Shown: one piece after another, positions 19,780-30,803 of the stretch
How positions within the stretch are numbered: the stretch's first letter is position 1
Layout: each line of letters begins with the position of its first letter
From: Parvularia atlantis
Lineage: Eukaryota > Opisthokonta > Rotosphaerida
DNA: 33,508 nucleotides
Direction: 5' to 3'
Assembly (NCBI GenBank): GCA_943704415.1
Contig: CALSCO010001329.1
Span: 1-33,508 of the forward strand
Program-made: the position numbers and the translations under genes
Notes under the pieces: generated by a model
Seen by the model: only the letters and a program-made list of their open reading frames with translations
The model's database searches: none
Told to the model about the DNA's origin: nothing

Positions 19780-22413
19780 ATGTCGACGAGAAGCGTGACA
19801 GCGCGGGTGTGGAGGGGCACGGGGCCACGCGCGCGGCGCGCACCGCGAGCGATCGTCCGCATCGGCGCGGCCGACGGCGGCGGCGACACGCGCGGCGGCG
19901 AGGCGGACGGGGCGCATGCGGGCGGGCGAGGCGATGTGGCGGCGGGGACCAGCGGCGAGGCCGACGGCGAGGCGTGGGGACCGATCGCGCTGCCGCCCGC
20001 CGACGCGGTGAAGCGCGTGCCGCAGACAGCCGCGCGGCAGAGCGCGCTCGGGCCGCGGCACGCGCCGCTGCTGACGATCAGCGCTGGCTACGGCACGAGC
20101 GCCGAGCGCACGACGCGCCTTGGCGGCGGCCCCAACGGGCAGCGATGGCGCCCGCACGCCCGCCAGCGCCTCGGCCAGCCGCTCATGCCCGGGCTGCAGG
20201 CCCTGCCCGGCTACGACAGCGACTCGGACGACGCGCACGACCCGCGTGACATCTCGCCGTTTAACCTCATGGCGCGCACGTTTGTTGAGAGCATCGACGA
20301 CACGCGCCGCGCCAGCGCCGCGGCAAACAACGCAGCCAGCGGCGACCGCAGCCGCGAGGGCGGGCCGCAGCTGCGACGGCACAGCCTCGTGAAGCAGGCG
20401 CTAGCGAGGCTGCGTGAGGCGGAGGAGGACCGGGACGCAGGCGACGCGGCCGACGCGGCGCGTGTGCAGCGGCTCGAGGAGGACATCAACGATCTCGACA
20501 CGGACGACGATGACGACGATGACGACGCAGACGACGACGCGAACGAGGTTGTGGACAACGGCGACGACGCGAGCGACCGCGCGGCCGACGACAGCAACGA
20601 TGCTACGCCGCCCGAGACGGCGCCCCGCGCGGGCGTCGACCGGGACGCGTGGGAGGTCGCCGTTAGGGAGCAGGTGCGCCCGGGCCGCATGCACCGGCGC
20701 AAGTACCGCCGGCTGCTGCGGCGCTGCCTGAAGGACCCGAGCGCGCTGTCGCTGCTGATGGCCACGCCGGCCGGCCCGATCGTCGTGGACCAGGAGTTTG
20801 AGGTAGACGTCGAGCGCGTCGACCAGAACTACGTCGGGCACGCGACCTACGAGGGCCAGCCGCTGATCGTGCACCACGTCATCCCCGGCGAGCGCGTGTT
20901 TGTGCGCGCGTGGCGCTACGACACCACGGGCCGGGTGCGCACGCTGTGCTGGCTCTGCGGCTGATGGTGACGGTGTGCGTGCAGCACTGGGTTACGGCGC
21001 TCGTGAAGGTGCTCAAGCCATCGCCGCACCGCGTCAAGCCGCCGTGCAAGTTCTACGGCCAGTGCAACGGGTGCCAGATGCAGCACGTCAAGTACGCCGA
21101 GCAGACGTCGTGGAAGAGCTCGGTGCGGCTGTGGCTCTTTGGCTTCCCGCGCAATCGCGATGCGGCTGACGGCGGCCGCCCGCAGACCGTGCAGCAGCTG
21201 TTCAGTTATGCCAACGTGCCCATCGCGCCGATGGTGTCCTCGCCGGCCAAGTACCACTACCGCTCAAAGCTCACGCCGAGCTTCCGCAAGCCCGGGGAAG
21301 AGCTGCGCATCGGCATGCACAGCTGGCGCCACAAGCGTGAGATCGTCGACGTCGACCGGTGCCTGATCGCGACCGAGGCCATCAACGCCAAGCTGGCCGA
21401 GATGCGCAAGGAGACGGCGGAGACGCTGAGCAAGCAGGCGGCCACGAGCGTGATGCCCAATGTGCGTGGCGCAAGTGCATGCTGCGGGGCCGCTGACTGT
21501 GGGCTTGTCGCGATCGCGTCAGGGCGCGACGCTCTTCTTCCGAGACACACTGCGACCGTCCGGGGCCGAGTCGGGCGAGCGCGTGTGCATCACCGACCCG
21601 CACGCGATGGCGCTCGAGCAGGTCGGCACAAAGGTCTACAGCTTCACGGCCAACTCGTTCTTCCAGAACAACCCGTTTGTGCTGCGCATGATGGTGCGCC
21701 GGCAGAGGGCTTGCCTGCGTCGCTCAGCGCTGACCGAGCACGCGCAGGTCGACACTGTGTGCAAAGAGGCCGTCGGCACGGACGTGGAGTACCTCGTGGA
21801 CGCGTACTGCGGCGCGGGCCTGTTTGCAATCTACGCGGCTGAGTACTTCCGCGCTATCGTCGGCATCGACATCAACAGCGAGTGCGCAGGCCGGCGGCCG
21901 GCCGCGGGGCGTGCAGCTGACACGCGACTGCAGATCTATCAGCTGCGCCAGGCTCAACGCGCGCGTCAACAGCGTGCACAAAAAGGTCTCGTTCCTCCAG
22001 GCCGACGCGCAGACCATCTTCAGCAGCCTCAAGTTCCCCGGGCGGCGCACGACGGTGCTGCCGCTGCGCTTTTGTGCCGTGCGCGCGTGCCTCGCTCATG
22101 CCCCGCTGCGTGCGCCCCAGGTCGTCATGGACCCGCCGCACGCCGGCAGCGACCTGTCGTTCCTGCGGCAGCTGATCAAGTTTGCGCCGCGGCGTATCGT
22201 CTACGTCTCGTGCAACCCCTTCACGCAGCGGCGCGACATCCGCTGGCTGCAGGTGCGCCGCCGCGCTGCATGCATCAGCCGAGCTGACGGCGCGCGCGCG
22301 CCCACCTACAGTCGCAGATGCCCGCGTACCGCATCATGTCGATCCGGCCGATGGACCTGTTCCCGCAGACGTCGGCCATCGAGAACGTCGTCACGCTCGA
22401 GCTCCAGATGTAG
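19780..22413 (+). CDS. TRM2: tRNA (uracil-5-)-methyltransferase, Trm2/TrmA-RumA family, with TRAM and Fe-S motifs
   Basis: Exons 19780-20934, 20985-21461, 21523-21693, 21748-21881, 21943-22054, 22121-22252 and 22312-22413 give 760 residues. The first ~325 are low complexity with a long D/E run (residues 240-270). A TRAM-like beta domain (VERVDQNYVGHATYEGQPLI, GERVFVRAW) follows. The cysteine set C-X5-C-X2-C (CKFYGQCNGC) plus a later Cys in VDRCLI matches the 4Fe-4S ligands of RumA in spacing. The catalytic domain has VDAYCGAGLFAIYA (SAM site), DPPHAG, the nucleophile Cys in VYVSCNP, and a C-terminal DLFPQTSAIE with the proton-abstracting Glu. It makes m5U54 in the T-loop of tRNA. The stop is 96 bp from that of the convergent SCCPDH-like gene. 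Confidence 0.92.
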
Positions 22414-22509
22414 ATTGTGGACAGCCATCAGCCGCACATTGCACATAGACGACGACGGCAGGCGAAGAGGAGGAACGACACGCGGGGAGCGACTGCGCGG
22501 GAGGGCGGG

Positions 22510-24152
22510 CTACGACACGGTCATGATCTTGCGCTCGTGCAGCAGCTCGAGCAGGCGGAAACCAAACGCGCTCGCCGGCGTGAGCACGCCGCCCGTGCCC
22601 GCCAGCACGCCGCTCTCGGCCGAGGCCGGCACGGGCACCTGCAGCAGCATCAGCGTGACCTCGCTGATCCACTTGGCCGTTGTGCCGTACGCTGGCCGTG
22701 GGACGCGTGTGAGCGTGTGGCCGGCAACACGGGAGCGCGCACGTACCGGGGTCAGACGCGGTGACGTTGACGATCTGCCGCACTGAGGCCGCGGGGCCCT
22801 TGCCCGTGTGCGACGCGATGGCAGTCAGGCGCAGCGAGCCCGCGGCGCGCTCGGCGTCGGTCGGGCCCTCGTGGCCGTCCGTGCGCAGCCACTTGAGCAC
22901 GGCCTTGCGCAGGAACGCGATCTTGCCGACAAGCACGAGCAGCGGCACGACGGCGAAGAGCGCCACGATGATGATGATCGGCGCAAACGCCGTGCGCAGG
23001 ACCGTGTACTGCGCCAGGTGCACGTCCGGCGGCGGGGCGTTGCGGTCGCGCCGCGCGACGAGGTTGAGCGAGCGGCGCGCGACGGTCGAGTCGAGAATCG
23101 GCAGCGGCATGACCCAGCCGCGGATCGCGCGGCTGTAGTGCGGGTAGAGCTTGACGCGGGGCTAGGGGGCGCGAGGGGCATCAGGCCGTGGTCACCGTGA
23201 TCACAACCGTGAGGGGGCGCACCCTCGACGGAAACACGCCGCCGACGCCGACCCAGGCCGACCAGAGGTGGCCAAACTCGCCGATCAGGTCGAGCTTGCG
23301 GAAGACCTCGAGCGCGGACGCAACCGTGCCCGCCGACGGCTTGAAGCGTACCTCACCAAACAGCTCGACCTTGTCGACGCTCGGCAGCACGGCGCCTGAG
23401 CGGTCGTGCGCGGCCGCGAAGGCCGAGAGGTCCTGCGTCGGCGCCGCTGCGTGAATGCGCATGCGGCCGGCGCGCGCGCGTGTGGTGTGCGAGGCGCACC
23501 CACGGCAGCGAGTCAAGTCCGCAGGCTGCGCGTATCGCCGTCAGCGAGGGAGGCGCGCGAGGTAGGAAAGGGGCGCACCGGGGATGATGCACACGCCGGT
23601 CGCGCGTGCGCGCTCATGGAAGCGGTCGACGACGCGGCGGTAAAAGTCGGTCTCGCCCGTCGTGTCGACGTAGTGCGCGAGGTTGTTGATGCACGCCTCA
23701 ATCACGTTCTCGCCGCCCGACGTGGCGAAGGGGCCGGCGGCGTTGATGACGATGCTGGTCTGGACGGCCATCGTGGCGAGGGCGCTGCGTCGCGGGGGGG
23801 CGCGTGCGCGGCTGTGGGCGAGGCGCGCGAGGGTCGGGGCGGAGTGCGCACGGCTTGTTGTCGCCGGCGCAGACGATCAGCGGCACCTCGGCCCAGGCCG
23901 CGGGCAGCGTCGCGCGGACGGCGTGCAGCTTCTCGGCGCTGCGTCCGGCCAGGGCGATGCTGCGGCCGCGCGGGGCGTGGGCGCGCGATGGGCGCGGGGC
24001 GCGGATCGGAGGGCGAGCGCGCACCGCAGCTTGGGCGCGCGCACGGCGAGGTACTGCGCGATCAGGCGGCCTGTGTAGCCGGTGGCGCCGAAGACGACGA
24101 CATCGAGCGCGCGCAGGCCGCGCGTGCCCGCCTGGGCCTCTCCCTCGGCCAT
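22510..24152 (-). CDS. SCCPDH: Saccharopine dehydrogenase-like oxidoreductase (SCCPDH / trans-acting enoyl reductase type)
   Basis: Minus-strand exons 24025-24152, 23852-23959, 23579-23784, 23500-23525, 23223-23432, 22747-23161 and 22510-22691 give 424 residues (human SCCPDH 429). The N-terminal Rossmann motif is VVVFGATGYTGRLIAQYL, then RIALAGRSAEKL. INAAGPFATSGGENVIEACI, HYVDTTGETDFYRR and ACGLDSLPWDL are typical of the family. A strong transmembrane helix (IIIIVALFAVVPLLVLVG) lies near residue 300, and the end is GVLTPASAFGFRLLELL. The family is named for sequence similarity; it lacks the lysine-pathway substrate residues, and human SCCPDH is found on lipid droplets. The substrate is unknown. 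Exon 4 is a 26-nt micro-exon whose removal would break the frame. Confidence 0.9.
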
Positions 24153-24321
24153 AGCTGCTGCGTGGCGCGCGTGCTGCGCGGTGCGGGATGGGTCGCCGGT
24201 CAGCGATCGCGCTGGAGGAGAGGCAGAGCGGTGATAGGCGTGGCCGCGTGTCATGCTTCGTTGGTGCTCCGCCTGTCGCGACGGCGCCGGCGCCACACGC
24301 CGCCGCAGCAGCAGCAGCACG

Positions 24322-27088
24322 ATGGCCGCCGCGCCGTCCAACACGCCGCTGATCGTCGAGGAAGAGCGGCTGGCAGGCCTCGTCGCGCAGTGCGTCGCGA
24401 GCCACGAGCCGCCGCTGGCGCACCTCCGCGTGCGTCGTCGCGTCGTGCCCCCTGGAAAGCACGCGAGCGACAGGCTGAGCACCGCGCACCGCAGGCCGTG
24501 ATCGACAGCACGCCGCGCCACGTCGCGCCGACCGATGACGAGCCGCTGCTGTGGCTGCAGGCCGCCGCGAGCCTGCGCTTCGCCCAGCTGGTGCGGCCGC
24601 GTGCTGCGCCCTCCGATTGGCTCATGCGCACTGCGCAGCCCGCGCAGGCCCTCGAGGTCACGGCCGACGCCATCGGCCGCTTCGGCAGCGACCCGCGGCG
24701 CCTCGTCGCGCTCGCCCGCGAGACCGCTGCCGCCCTCGCGCAGCTGCGCAGCCGCACGCCCGGCGCCTTCACCGCGCAGCACGCGACCTACCTGCGCACG
24801 CTCGACCTGCTCCGTGCGCGCCACCCGCACACGCGTCACGCGACAGCTCACCGCCGCGTTGCATCGCCGCGCCCAGTCAACGCACAGCAGCCCGCATGGC
24901 GCGCCATCGCCGTCGCCGCGATGGACGCCGGCTTCCACCGCGTCGGGCAGGTGTTCCTCATGCACGTGGGCAAGCGCGTCCTCCCCGCGTGGTTCCAGCG
25001 CTACCCGCCCGGCACAGAAACGCCGCCGTCCTCGTCGTCGGCGGCGGCGGCGGGTAAGCGCGCCAGCCCGGGCAGCGCATCGCAGATGTACGTCTGGGAC
25101 AGCTCGCCGAGCAAGCGCCCCGCCGTGCGCAGCTCGTTCGTCGTCGCCGACAGCTTTGGGTTGCCGCCGCTCGCGCAGGTGGCACTCGTTGCATCCGTGT
25201 GGCCCCGTTGCTGAAGCCCACATGCGCGCAGCCCGACCTGAAGACGGCAACAGCACTTGTGCCTGCGACAGCTCTGCCGTCGCCGCCGATGTTAACCGCT
25301 GCCGAGACCGGGTCGGCCGCGGCGTCACCCGACGGGATGCGCGACGGCGTGCTGCGGCTGCAGGTGCCGCAGGGTGCGGCGCTGGACGAGGCCGCCGTGG
25401 AGCAGCAGTGCCTGGGCGCGCCGATCGCGCTGCTCTCCGGGCTGCCGGCCGCGTGCGGGATAGACTTGGCGCAGTTGAGCACGGCGACGATGCTGGCGCA
25501 GGGCCACGCGCTGGACGAAATCGATGTGCGCGCTCGTGTGCACGATGAGCAGGAACGTGACACGCGCGCGGCGCAGGTGCTCCAGCAAAACTACCGCGAG
25601 CACCAGGCGCGGCTGCGGTCCTCGCCCACGTGGGAGTACAAGTTCCAGCGGCGCAGCGGCACGCTCGGGGCATACGCGAGCTACCAGGAGCACATGCTGA
25701 AGACGGACGGGGCGGCGGCGTCCGAGGGCATCGTCGACTTTTGCACCAACATCGACGTGGCCGACCACGACCGGTGCGCCCTCGGCGGGCCCCTGCAAGA
25801 GCAGTTCGCTGACGTCGGTGTGCGACTTGCGCAGCTGGGAGCCGCAGCTGCGCGAGCTAGCCAAGCTGCCGGAGTTCCTGCGGCCGCAGTCGCCCAAGGA
25901 TTTGCTGGCCGTGTACCCGTACCCTATCCTGGGCGTGAACCGAACGCAGATGTACCTCAAGGTGCACAACTGCCGCACGACGGGTGCGTGGCGCGACACC
26001 TCTGCCGAGGTGACACTGACGGTGCGCGCGCAACAGGCCACCAGGAGAACAACATGCTGTGCTCGGTCAACGTCAACATTGGTCCGGGCGACTGCGAGTG
26101 GTTCGCCGTCGACTGCAAGCACTGGACCGACATCGACGCCCTGTGCAGGCGGTGCGCGCGCGCTTGCACGCGACGGGTGAAGGCGAGATGGCTGAGCCGC
26201 GCTCGACGACGGCAGGCAGGGCATCGACTACCTCAAGGACAGCTGGTGGCCGACCTCGCGCGACCTCGACGTGAGCCACGTGCCCTACACGCGCTTCCTG
26301 CAGCGGCCAGGCGAGGTGGTCTTTGTGTCGTGCGGGACGGTGCACTGGGTCGAGAGCAAGGTGCGGCGTGGCGGTGGTACCTCTGTGCATGCGCATGCTG
26401 ATGACGACGCGCGCGGGCCGCAGGGCGTCACAAACAACGTCGCGTGGAACTACGCCGCGCCAGTGCTGCACCAGTACAAGATGGCCATGGACCGCTTCTG
26501 GTGGAACAAGAAGGAGCAGTACAAGTCGATCGTGCCGATGGAAACGATCTCGTGGATGCTCGCGGGCTTCCGGCTCAAGGATTGCGCGCTGGCCGAGTAC
26601 CTCCTTTGCGTCACGGTTTTGTGGCAACTGTGCGTGGCGTCTGACCGTCGTGTGCTGCCGCAGGTGGATCTTGCGCGAGTCGTTCGAGCGCGAGCAGCAG
26701 CTGGCGGCCCACGTCGCGCGGGGCAAAATTGCGGTCGATGAGGGCAACTCGGAGCGGTGGCACACCTTCTACTGCGTCAAGTGCAACGAGGAGCTGTTCA
26801 ACCACGTCTTTGTCGTGCGGCCTGGTGTGCGGTGTAGCAAGTGCGGCTTGCACGCGCTACGACTGACTGACAGCGGGTGATGCGGCAGCCGGCGTGCTCA
26901 ACCCAGCGGCGAGCGAGACGTTCTGCTGGGCGTGCACCAAGCGCGTGCTGAACCGGGCGACGGTGAGCGGGATGACGTCCAAGGCGACCAAGCGCGAAGT
27001 GCAGGTGCTGCGGCGGTACGGCCTGGCCGAGCTGGCGCAGCGGTTGCAGCAGCTACAGCAGAGCCTGTCGGACGCGCCTGTGTCGTGA
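24322..27088 (+). CDS. KDM6: JmjC histone demethylase of the KDM6 (UTX/JMJD3) family, predicted H3K27me3 eraser
   Basis: Exons 24322-24429, 24495-24590, 24639-24813, 24877-25178, 25232-25773, 25835-25983, 26037-26151, 26216-26360, 26424-26620, 26664-26824 and 26889-27088 give 729 residues. Residues 1-227 match nothing I recognise and show no clear TPRs. From about 330: [35 protein letters not shown], then the JmjC core [20 protein letters not shown]. Fe ligands are His459, Glu461 and His539 (CGTVHW), with the same 2- and 80-residue spacing as UTX. After [12 protein letters not shown] comes the KDM6-specific zinc domain (YCVKC and, after splicing, FCWAC). The enzyme would remove methyl groups from H3K27 using 2-oxoglutarate. 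Introns 24591-24638 and 24814-24876 are multiples of three and could be retained. The gene ends 106 bp before EED. Confidence 0.88.
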
Positions 27089-27194
27089 CCGGTCCGAAGT
27101 CACGGTGTGTGTGTGTGCAAACCAGGGCGCGCGGTACGCCTTTAGTTTGTCTGCAGCCACTTCGTTCCGTGACGATCATCAGACGGAGCGTGCG

Positions 27195-29117
27195 ATGAGC
27201 GACGCCGGGACGCCCAACAGCAGCGCGAGTGGCGCCAGCAACGGCGGCCTCGGTGCGGCGCCGGTGGGGCCGGCGCGCCTGCGCTACGTGACGCACGTCA
27301 AGGTGCGGCGTGGCGCGGATGCGGCGGCCGATGCGCTAGCCGCTCACGCGACGACATCGGCGGCGGCGCGCAGGAGACGCACCGGCACCCGCTCTTCGGC
27401 GCCGCGTTTGATCCGCACGACCCGGCCGGCGCGACGTTCGCGGCCGTGGGTGGGCCGATGGTGCGCGAGGGGCGCGACGGCACCGCTCATTGGGGTGCTC
27501 ATGCGCGCGCGCACACACAAGGCGTACGTGTACGAGTGCACGAGCGCGGGCGGCCTGGCGCTGCTGCAGGTCTACCGTGACGCGAGCGTGCGCCCCTGCG
27601 CGCGATCCGGCCCGTCGTGGCCTGCGGTGTTGACGGCGGGCGCCGGCGCAGGCCGATGAGTCGCTGTACACGTGCGCGTGGACGATGCACGCCGTCTCGG
27701 GCGCGCCGCTGCTGCTGTTGGGCGGGTTGGCGGGCGTGCTCAAGGTGCTCGACACGAGCGAAGGGCGCGTGGTGCAGGTGCCGCCCACCGTCGCCGCACC
27801 GCACACGCGCGCGCTGAGACTGCGCATAGGCGCTCGTGGGCCACGGGCACGCCATCAACGAGGTCCGCACGCACCCGCACCAGCCGCAGCTCGTGCTCAC
27901 GGCCAGGTGCGCGGCCTGCCCTGCCCTGCCCTGCCCTGCCCTGCCCTGCACGCGGCCGCAACCGCTCGCTCACGACACACACGACGACGACGACGACGCG
28001 CAGCAAGGACACGTCCGTACGCCTGTGGAACGTCCAGACGATGTGCTGCGTCGCGATCTTTGGCGGCGACGCCGGCCACCGCAACGAAGTTCTTAGCGTG
28101 GTGCGGACCATCTCGCGCGGCTGCTCGGCACGCCTCACGGCGCGTCGCGCACAGGACTGGCACCACAGCGGCCTGCGCTTCGTGTCGGGCGCGATGGACA
28201 ACAAGGCCATGGTGTGGTCGCTCACGCCGCAGAAAGTGCAGGACGCGCTGGCCTGTGCGTGCGCCTGCGCGTGGTCTTGCCGCCGGCCGGCCGACACCGC
28301 CGCCGCGCGCGCGCAGTATCCGCGTCGTACAGCGTGCACGTCTCGCGCCGCTCGTTCAAGTCGGAGGTCGTGCACCAGCCCGAGTTCACCAACAGCACCG
28401 TGCACCGCAACTACATCGACTGCGTTCGCTACCTGGTCCGCACGCCCACGCTGTCGCGCACGCACATAGCAGGCACGCTCACGGCCGCCGCGGCCGCAGG
28501 GCGACGTCATCCTCAGCAAGTCGACCGACAGCTGCATCAGCATGTGGCTGCCCGACCGTATCGTCAGCGCGGCCAGCCAGGACCAGGAGGGCTCGATCGT
28601 GCACCTGCACGACTTTCGCTTCGACAAGTGCGACATCTGGTGCGTGCCTGTGACGAACTGTGCGTCTGTGTCGACTGCTGAGCAGCGCACACATGGCGCA
28701 GGTTTGTGCGGTTTGCGCTCGACCTGGAGCACCAGCAGCTTCTGTGCGGCACCATCGACGGCCGCGTGAGCGTCTGGGACCTGAACACGAACGGCACGGC
28801 CGTCAGCGGTGCGGCGACTGCACGCGTGCGCCGCGCGAAGCCCACTCAGCGCTGCCGGCGTGCGACGCAGTGCAACTGTTCGCGCCCATCCGGCTCCAGA
28901 GCAAGTCGGCCGAAAGCTTGTCGCACGCGCGCTGCCGGGCCACCGTGCGGCAGGTCGTCGTGGGCCCACAATCACGGTGCGCGCATGCCGGCCATGTGCA
29001 GCGCGGTGTGCGGGCCGACACGACCGCAGGCACGTCGTCGCTGTCTGCGAGGACAGCTCGATCTGGCGCTGGGACGCCGCACCGGCCGACACCAAGGACG
29101 GTACGGCCGAAAACTAG
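27195..29117 (+). CDS. EED: EED/ESC WD40 subunit of Polycomb repressive complex 2
   Basis: Twelve exons (27195-27302, 27374-27460, 27522-27587, 27652-27777, 27830-27906, 28004-28100, 28155-28254, 28317-28435, 28500-28639, 28702-28808, 28871-28976, 29030-29117) give 406 residues (human 441). Blade signatures match EED in order: HPLFGAAFDPHDPAGATFAA, YVYECTSAGGLALLQVY, ADESLYTCAWTM, LVGHGHAINEVRTHP, TSVRLWNVQTMCCVAIFGG, DNKAMVWSLTP, HRNYIDCVRYLGDVILSKST, FDKCDIWFVRFALD and VAVCEDSSIWRWD. The aromatic cage that binds trimethyl-lysine is intact: Phe44, Tyr93, Trp307 and Phe308 correspond to human F97, Y148, W364 and Y365. Family knowledge: EED holds EZH2 and allosterically activates it on reading H3K27me3. 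Intron 27907-28003 carries a CCCTG repeat. Confidence 0.93.
27908..27954 (+). repeat. CCCTG pentanucleotide repeat in an EED intron
   Basis: Several consecutive CCCTG units start shortly after the GTGCGCGG donor of the 27907-28003 intron, enlarging it to 97 bp where neighbours are 52-71 bp. The intron also holds a CGA/CAC-rich run before its acceptor. It is noncoding in my model. Confidence 0.75.
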
Positions 29118-29136
29118 GGCAAGCAAGAGCATATTT

Positions 29137-29616
29137 TTAGAAGGGCCGACGGACGCAGGCTCGGCGTGCCATCGCGGCCGCCGCGGCGGGCTGAGACGAG
29201 AAGGGCGCAGGCAGCGCGCCATGGTTGTCGATGAGCTTCTTCAGCAGGTCGAGGTCGTTGGCAGGTTGCTGATGCGGTGCACGACGCGGTAGCCGTTGAT
29301 CGAGAGCTCTTCATGGTCCCGGCCTGAGTGCTGCTCTGAACGGTGCTACCGCGCATCACGCTCGCGTGCGCCGAGGCAGCGGCCGGTGCCGACTCGCTCG
29401 TGGCCGCGGCGCTGCGCTGGCGGCGTGCGGGCGGGCCGACGAGGCGCTGGTCCACGTCCTCTCTTTTGTGCGCGCCGCGGCGGCCGACGGACGAGCTCGC
29501 CGCCAGCACGATGCGCGCGCGGCAGCTGGCGGGCATCGTACCGTACGACCCGACAGCCGCGATCCGCCGGGTGCGCTGCGGGCGAGCCGTGAACCGCGTG
29601 TACTTTCGAGGAGACG
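29137..29616 (-). other. Unresolved minus-strand reading frames, possible small gene
   Basis: This interval lies between the EED stop and the carnitine acetyltransferase ATG. On the minus strand, two adjacent segments look protein-like: HEELSINGYRVVHRISNLP (about 29255-29312) and NDLDLLKKLIDNHGALPAPF (about 29180-29245), the second running to a stop at 29137-29139. They abut in frames offset by one base. An intron ending CATCAG, or a single-base sequence error, could explain this. Upstream (29320-29600) one long minus frame is Arg/Ala/Ser-rich and could be coding or a composition artefact. I recognise no family. A short gene divergent from the acetyltransferase and convergent with EED is the best reading, at low confidence. 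Confidence 0.3.
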
Positions 29617-30803
29617 ATGGGCGCCCCACTGCCGCCGCTGCCCGTGCCGCCGCTCGATGCGACGCTGCAGCGCTACCTCGCCTCGTGGTGCGCGCATCGA
29701 CGCACCTCACGCGCACACGCGCACCTCACGCCCCTCACCGACCCGCCCAGCGAGCCGCTCTACGCCGACGCCGCCGAGCGCCGCGCGACCGAGGGCGCCG
29801 TGCGCGCGTGGGCCGACGGCATCGGCCCGGTGCTGCAGGCGCGACTCGAGGCGCACGCGCGCGCCTGCAACGCCGCCGGCACGTCGTGGCTGGCGCGGTG
29901 GTGGCTCGAGCGCGCGTACCTGGCCTGGCGCGCACCCCTCCCGATCCTCTCGAACTGGTACCTCGGCCTTCACGACCTCGCCCCCAACCTCGGCGCCTCG
30001 TCGCACGCGCGCGCCGCCGCCCTCGTCGCCGCGGCCGTCGCCTTCAAGCGCACCGCCGTCGACCCGCTCACCGCGCACGCCGACGAGGCACCGCTCCGCC
30101 GCGCGCTCGGCATCGGCGCGGACGTGGCCGTCGACCTCTCGCAGTTTGGCCGCCTCTTCGCCACGTGCCGCGTGCCCGCCCGCGACATCGACTGCAGCGT
30201 CGCCGAGGTGTGCCGCCCGCACTGTCCGCCCCGCCGCCCCGCCAACAGCGACCGTAGGACCACCTCGCGCCGCACGAGCACGCGCCGTACATCCTCGTCA
30301 TTGCGCGCAACGCGCTCTTCCGCCTCGACGTGCTCCGCCCGGCCGACCGTACGCCCTACAGCGCTGCTGCCATCGCTCGGTGCGTGCACACGGGCCAGAG
30401 CACGCGCACCGCTCACCTGCCCGCCCCAGCGCGCTGCACGACATCGAGCGCGCGGCTGCCGAGCCGCACACGGACGACGGCGTCTGCCTGCTCACGTCGC
30501 AGACGCGCGACGTCTGGGCCGAGGTCAGTCGCGCACAGCCGCGCACGCAATCAGAGGCTGATCGTGTTTGTGTGCAGATGCACGAGCATCTGCTCGCCCT
30601 CGACCCAGCCCGCAACGGCAATGCACTCGCGGTCGTGCAACACGCACTGTTTTGCGTCGCGCTCGACGGCACCTCGCCGGCAGCGATCGACGAGGTGCGC
30701 ACACGGAAGCGCCACGTCGATACCCACTCACCCGACGCGCCCGCAGTTGTGCACACAGGTGCTCGTCGGCGAGCCGCACCTGTGCAACCGCTGGTTCGAC
30801 AAG

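Follow-up and report, generated by a model that had tools for sequence, protein, structure and literature searches.

A KDM6-family JmjC gene and an EED gene stand in tandem in an apparently chytrid-like fungal genome

A gene for a KDM6-family JmjC protein and a gene for the PRC2 subunit EED lie side by side on one contig of what appears to be a chytrid-like fungus. We think it probable that the two are distinct and complete chromatin genes, with one copy found of each, and that chance has made them neighbours in a compact genome. "The window" is the whole stretch of DNA that was analyzed, 33,508 bp (contig C333; G000:C333:1-33508), and it comes from an assembly whose 616 contigs add up to 16,251,876 bases, with about 70% GC and many short introns. 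The products of the two genes would act on the same mark, H3K27me3: the KDM6 protein would remove it, and EED would read it through an aromatic cage while holding PRC2 together. Their adjacency would need no special mechanism, each gene presumably being transcribed independently as a gene of its own.

The initial annotation described the upstream gene as a UTX-type JmjC gene. The family assignment stood, but the UTX subtype did not. Pfam placed a JmjC domain (3.7e-23) and the KDM6_C-hel domain (2e-10, 40.6 bits against a cut-off of 26.8) in the predicted protein, and all nine of its PDB matches at 1e-3 were KDM6A, KDM6B or UTY, the best being KDM6B (4eyu, 1.1e-80). Judged by these nine matches, the protein appears closer to KDM6 than to other JmjC groups. 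The Pfam match to the GATA-like zinc domain (KDM6_GATAL; 3.4e-4, 20.9 bits) fell below its 27-bit cut-off, and the four zinc cysteines align in eight of the eight sequences of the alignment. The three iron ligands that had been claimed for this gene (H496, E498 and H576) were recovered in the alignment, as were the 2-oxoglutarate positions (Table 1). The iron, 2-oxoglutarate and zinc roles given to these residues are, we assume, those known from KDM6 structures.

A Pfam search found no TPR family at E <= 1e-3 in the protein, the N-terminal model being its least certain part. The layout is therefore JMJD3-like and not UTX-like, and a strict UTX label was rejected. What the protein shares with KDM6B/JMJD3, KDM6A/UTX and UTY is the JmjC domain, the iron and 2-oxoglutarate positions, the C-terminal helical domain and the GATA-like cysteines. 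It differs from all three in being apparently non-animal and in having a GATA-like domain below the Pfam cut-off, and from UTX and UTY in that no TPR was found. Family membership would make it an Fe(II)/2-oxoglutarate-dependent H3K27me2/3 demethylase, in activity and in substrate.

The downstream gene was annotated as a complete EED gene, and our model, which has one stop, at its end, bears this out. The best PDB match of its product was 3jpx, Polycomb protein EED (2e-89), whereas the best chain not called EED scored 3.6e-25, both among the best 60 of 473 matches. A putative Eed in the PDB listing is presumably from a fungus. Residues 6-394 align to human EED, and the predicted WD40 propeller seems most similar to that of EED and not to other WD40 proteins. 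The H3K27me3-cage positions F44, Y93, W307 and F308 are those that we take to correspond to human F97, Y148, W364 and Y365: the F, Y and W are the same in the two proteins, while the fourth position has changed from Y to F. All four are thus aromatic, and a cage for trimethyl-lysine is predicted. Fungal EEDs have been reviewed, and the available text of that review reports a long C-terminal insertion in those that were studied (PMC8788455); the window EED is without it. Mis-assignment of either the KDM6 or the EED protein was considered and rejected on the PDB and protein-collection searches, the best PDB matches placing neither protein outside its family.

Both gene models were spliced manually at GT-AG borders. 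Such borders could be placed for 19 of 19 introns, with a GTGCG donor in 14 of the 19, and intron lengths ranged from 43 to 97 bp (43-65 bp in KDM6, 52-97 bp in EED). Alternative donors exist at the KDM6 intron 26621-26663. Because the PDB match of the KDM6 protein begins at residue 327-328 and no upstream homologue was matched, confidence in the splicing is lowest upstream of about residue 327.

Table 1. Coordinates of the KDM6 and EED genes, their functional positions and the gap between them (window numbering).
Feature	Position	Strand	Remarks
KDM6-family JmjC protein gene	24322..27088	+	9 exons, 766 aa, JMJD3-like layout
KDM6 exons 1-5	24322-24429, 24495-25178, 25232-25773, 25835-25983, 26037-26151	+	
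KDM6 exons 6-9	26216-26360, 26424-26620, 26664-26824, 26889-27088	+	
KDM6 catalytic core codons	25959..26071	+	interrupted by intron 25984-26036
KDM6 2-oxoglutarate codons	K487 (25959), T493 (25977), S504 (26063), N506 (26069)	+	from alignment
KDM6 iron codons	H496 (26039), E498 (26045)	+	from alignment
KDM6 third iron ligand	H576, 26343..26345	+	in GTVHWV; motif aligned to KDM6B
KDM6 zinc (GATA-like) cysteines	C684 (26773), C687 (26782), C713 (26924), C716 (26933)	+	
KDM6 zinc (GATA-like) domain cysteines, span	26773..26935	+	split by intron 26825-26888
Intergenic gap	27089..27194	.	106 bp, 60% GC against 70% in the window, short GT run
EED (PRC2 WD40 subunit) gene	27195..29117	+	12 exons, 406 aa, one stop, at end
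EED exons 1-6	27195-27302, 27374-27460, 27522-27587, 27652-27777, 27830-27906, 28004-28100	+	
EED exons 7-12	28155-28254, 28317-28435, 28500-28639, 28702-28808, 28871-28976, 29030-29117	+	
EED H3K27me3-cage positions	F44 (27395), Y93 (27667), W307 (28638), F308 (28703); span 27395..28705	+	W307 codon split by intron

No second copy of either gene was found in the 16.25-Mb assembly. A 315-residue KDM6 query gave five matches, all on C333, and seven of the nine matches to a 262-residue EED query fell there as well; the remaining two were weak matches on C255 and C272 (29-32% identity) that contained internal stops. Other JmjC matches were present on C250, C273, C69, C238 and C48, none of them matched by the KDM6 query. 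A search for EZH2 and SUZ12 in the same genome, which the initial annotation had proposed, located both: the EZH2 CXC domain has one match, on C73 (19,437 bp), with a SET stretch readable by eye beside it, and the SUZ12 VEFS box has two, on C166 (28,842 bp). Neither gene was found on C333 in the assembly search, and C73 and C166 are short, so that linkage past the contig ends is possible. By its signature domains, the EZH2-EED-SUZ12 core is encoded in the assembly; it is like core PRC2 in having all three, and here the genes are spread over three contigs. A canonical H3 with a K27 tail was not found in the assembly, where the search returned only a divergent H3 (C518) and a CENP-A-like gene (C363), and the H3K27 substrate was therefore not directly seen. 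A RING-finger search aimed at PRC1 gave 31 assembly matches, the pattern being too general.

The lineage of the host can be approached through the EZH2 contig. Next to EZH2 on C73 lies a fused tryptophan synthase gene, which was read and spliced by eye and agrees with a protein search; a subtilase was also read there by eye. Among the 120 listed of 8,000 matches, the best match of the tryptophan synthase was a JGI protein, P0148 (83%), and 12 of the next 13 rows carried an organism name, with identities of 65-68%. All 12 of the named organisms are, we take it, chytrid-type fungi. This similarity, which concerns one gene on another contig and was not placed on a tree, points to a chytrid-like fungus as the host, and the GC content of the window agrees with that of the EZH2 and SUZ12 loci. 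No match supported an assignment to Caulochytrium.

A chytrid-like host would make the KDM6 gene notable in itself, because the available text of a 2008 survey, mainly of plants and animals, called KDM6 animal-specific (PMC2579438), and because the organisms that carry a name in the 120 KDM6 matches listed are all animals, many rows being without a name. A KDM6-like group in fungi has a precedent: according to the available text of a 2022 Aspergillus study, several of its 15 outgroup species, from Ascomycota and Basidiomycota, have a KDM6B/JMJD3 group (PMC9676040). A paper on choanoflagellate H3K27me3 (PMC11160669) makes no mention of KDM6, UTX, demethylase, JmjC, fungi or EED, and the available part of a paper under the accession PMC10638273 makes none of KDM6, UTX or demethylase.

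The KDM6 search of the protein collection passed 993 sequences; it used a word filter, length limits and 8,000 candidates, a scope that may hide fungal sequences. No close named relative of KDM6 or EED was found among the matches listed. The missing fungal names for KDM6 weigh little, because the same kind of search with EED named no fungus among its 27 matches, though fungal EEDs exist. Pattern searches for KDM6 relatives in a viral collection (18 matches) and in a prokaryote genome collection (36 matches) returned none.

The all-animal names would also be expected if the contig, or the KDM6 gene, were of animal origin through contamination or transfer, and the fungal assignment does depend on one gene on another contig. 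Several lines of evidence speak against such an origin. The GC content of the window is 70.4%, compared with 69.9% at the EZH2 locus and 69.0% at the SUZ12 locus; the introns are short and of one style across KDM6 and EED; and the identity of the KDM6 protein to the 120 matches listed is 33-45%. A tree was made of the window KDM6 and 22 of those 120 matches, picked for spread. In it, the window protein and two distant KDM6 relatives, P0030 and P0031 (42% identical in the alignment), group apart from the 20 other rows, sponge included, with a support of 98/100; the tree is unrooted and displayed at its midpoint, and the great length of the window branch (4.09) makes long-branch joins possible. 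Read in this way, it suggests only that the gene is not nested within any one animal group. On the tree, the GC content and the intron style, contamination or an animal origin was rejected as extremely unlikely.

That the KDM6 gene ends at 27088, 106 bp before the EED gene on the same strand, agrees with what was first annotated, and the question is how much meaning this proximity carries. Counting about 15 genes in the window by eye, we put the genome at roughly 7,300 genes. With that number, a named pair would adjoin by chance with a probability of about 2.7e-4, or about 1.4e-4 on the same strand, the pair having been chosen after the fact; if 150 chromatin genes are assumed, about three neighbouring chromatin-chromatin pairs are expected genome-wide. 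The low odds for the named pair, and the predicted action of both products on one mark, count against chance adjacency. The spacing itself is ordinary, since close packing is general in the window: a divergent gene upstream starts about 169 bp from KDM6, if the ATG at 24152 is its start, and on the far side of EED, at a distance of about 19 bp, lies the end of a likely convergent gene, near 29137 (both by eye). Pfam matches at 0.01 were obtained for 8 of 20 window stretches. They include C2H2, MON1/FUZ longin, Sua5, Aquarius, a sub-threshold AAA_11, SNO and carnitine acyltransferase, and their functions are unrelated and without a Polycomb theme. Scans of the gap identified no regulatory element, the patterns used being bacterial and uninformative on eukaryotic promoters, and the repeat matches listed for 24100-29200 were weak and GC-rich only.

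The two genes could instead form a Polycomb switch, their adjacency being kept by co-expression, or PRC2 and KDM6 acting on the spacer between them so that the mark feeds back on the amounts of both proteins. The shared mark, the common strand, the distance of 106 bp and the one copy found of each gene fit this proposal. Neighbourhood effects are possible in principle, given that co-expression of neighbouring genes has been studied in yeast and fly, as the available text of two papers indicates (PMC2045684, PMC3129673). However, genes in tandem have no divergent promoter in common, EZH2 and SUZ12 lie on other contigs, and the gap is not unusually short for this window. A genomic pairing of KDM6 and EED is not mentioned in the titles and abstract beginnings of the literature searched. 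The switch is a fair hypothesis, at present without support, and we consider it quite unlikely.

Descent could also account for the pair, as part of an old chytrid synteny block that is slow to rearrange and within which the two genes share no regulation. Everything seen is compatible with such a block, and the relatives P0030 and P0031 exist; the longest contigs that carry them measure 2,908 and 1,514 bp, which leaves no room for neighbours. The block is, however, proposed from a single genome, and it is an unlikely explanation of the pair. A more elaborate history, in which the chytrid lineage kept an ancestral TPR-less KDM6 that many fungi have lost, and kept it in a conserved, co-regulated tandem with EED whose own mark possibly sets the levels of both, strikes us as very doubtful. 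Chance adjacency of two independent genes is the reading we prefer.

The more durable point, as far as sequence can carry it, is that a chytrid-like fungus appears to have both a PRC2 core and a KDM6 protein with its catalytic positions kept. If this is a true chytrid H3K27 demethylase, animals would not be alone in reversing H3K27 methylation with a dedicated eraser, and a fungal genome of small size that encodes a PRC2 core and one KDM6 might offer a simple system for the study of writer-eraser balance. The adjacency of KDM6 and EED would matter only if it is conserved, in which case feedback on Polycomb levels would be directly testable through the linked pair.

The pair formed by the KDM6-family JmjC gene and the gene for EED, the WD40 subunit of PRC2, has a divergent gene upstream and a likely convergent gene downstream. 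The product of the divergent gene presumably resembles a saccharopine-dehydrogenase-like membrane protein, with VVFGATGYTGRLIAQY close to its start, and no Pfam family was matched in the stretches of this gene that were tested. By eye, about 19 bp separate the EED stop from the end of the convergent gene. Near window position 30800, in the carnitine acyltransferase region, there is a long CA/GT run, which among the listed ORFs reads as repeated Thr-His.

Genes flanking KDM6-EED, and the EZH2 locus
Feature	Location	Strand	Remark
Divergent gene	window 22400-24152	minus	start about 169 bp from KDM6
Likely convergent gene	window 29137-29500	minus	by eye
EZH2 locus L033	C73:1500-9500	minus	

The PRC2 subunit EZH2 is flanked on its own contig, C73, by a subtilase-like gene on one side and a fused alpha-beta tryptophan synthase on the other. 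The assembly seems to be without a canonical H3, and the only H3-like loci found in it are L037/L043 on contig C518, where the H3 is divergent (76% across 49 residues), and L038 on contig C363, which encodes a CENP-A-like protein.
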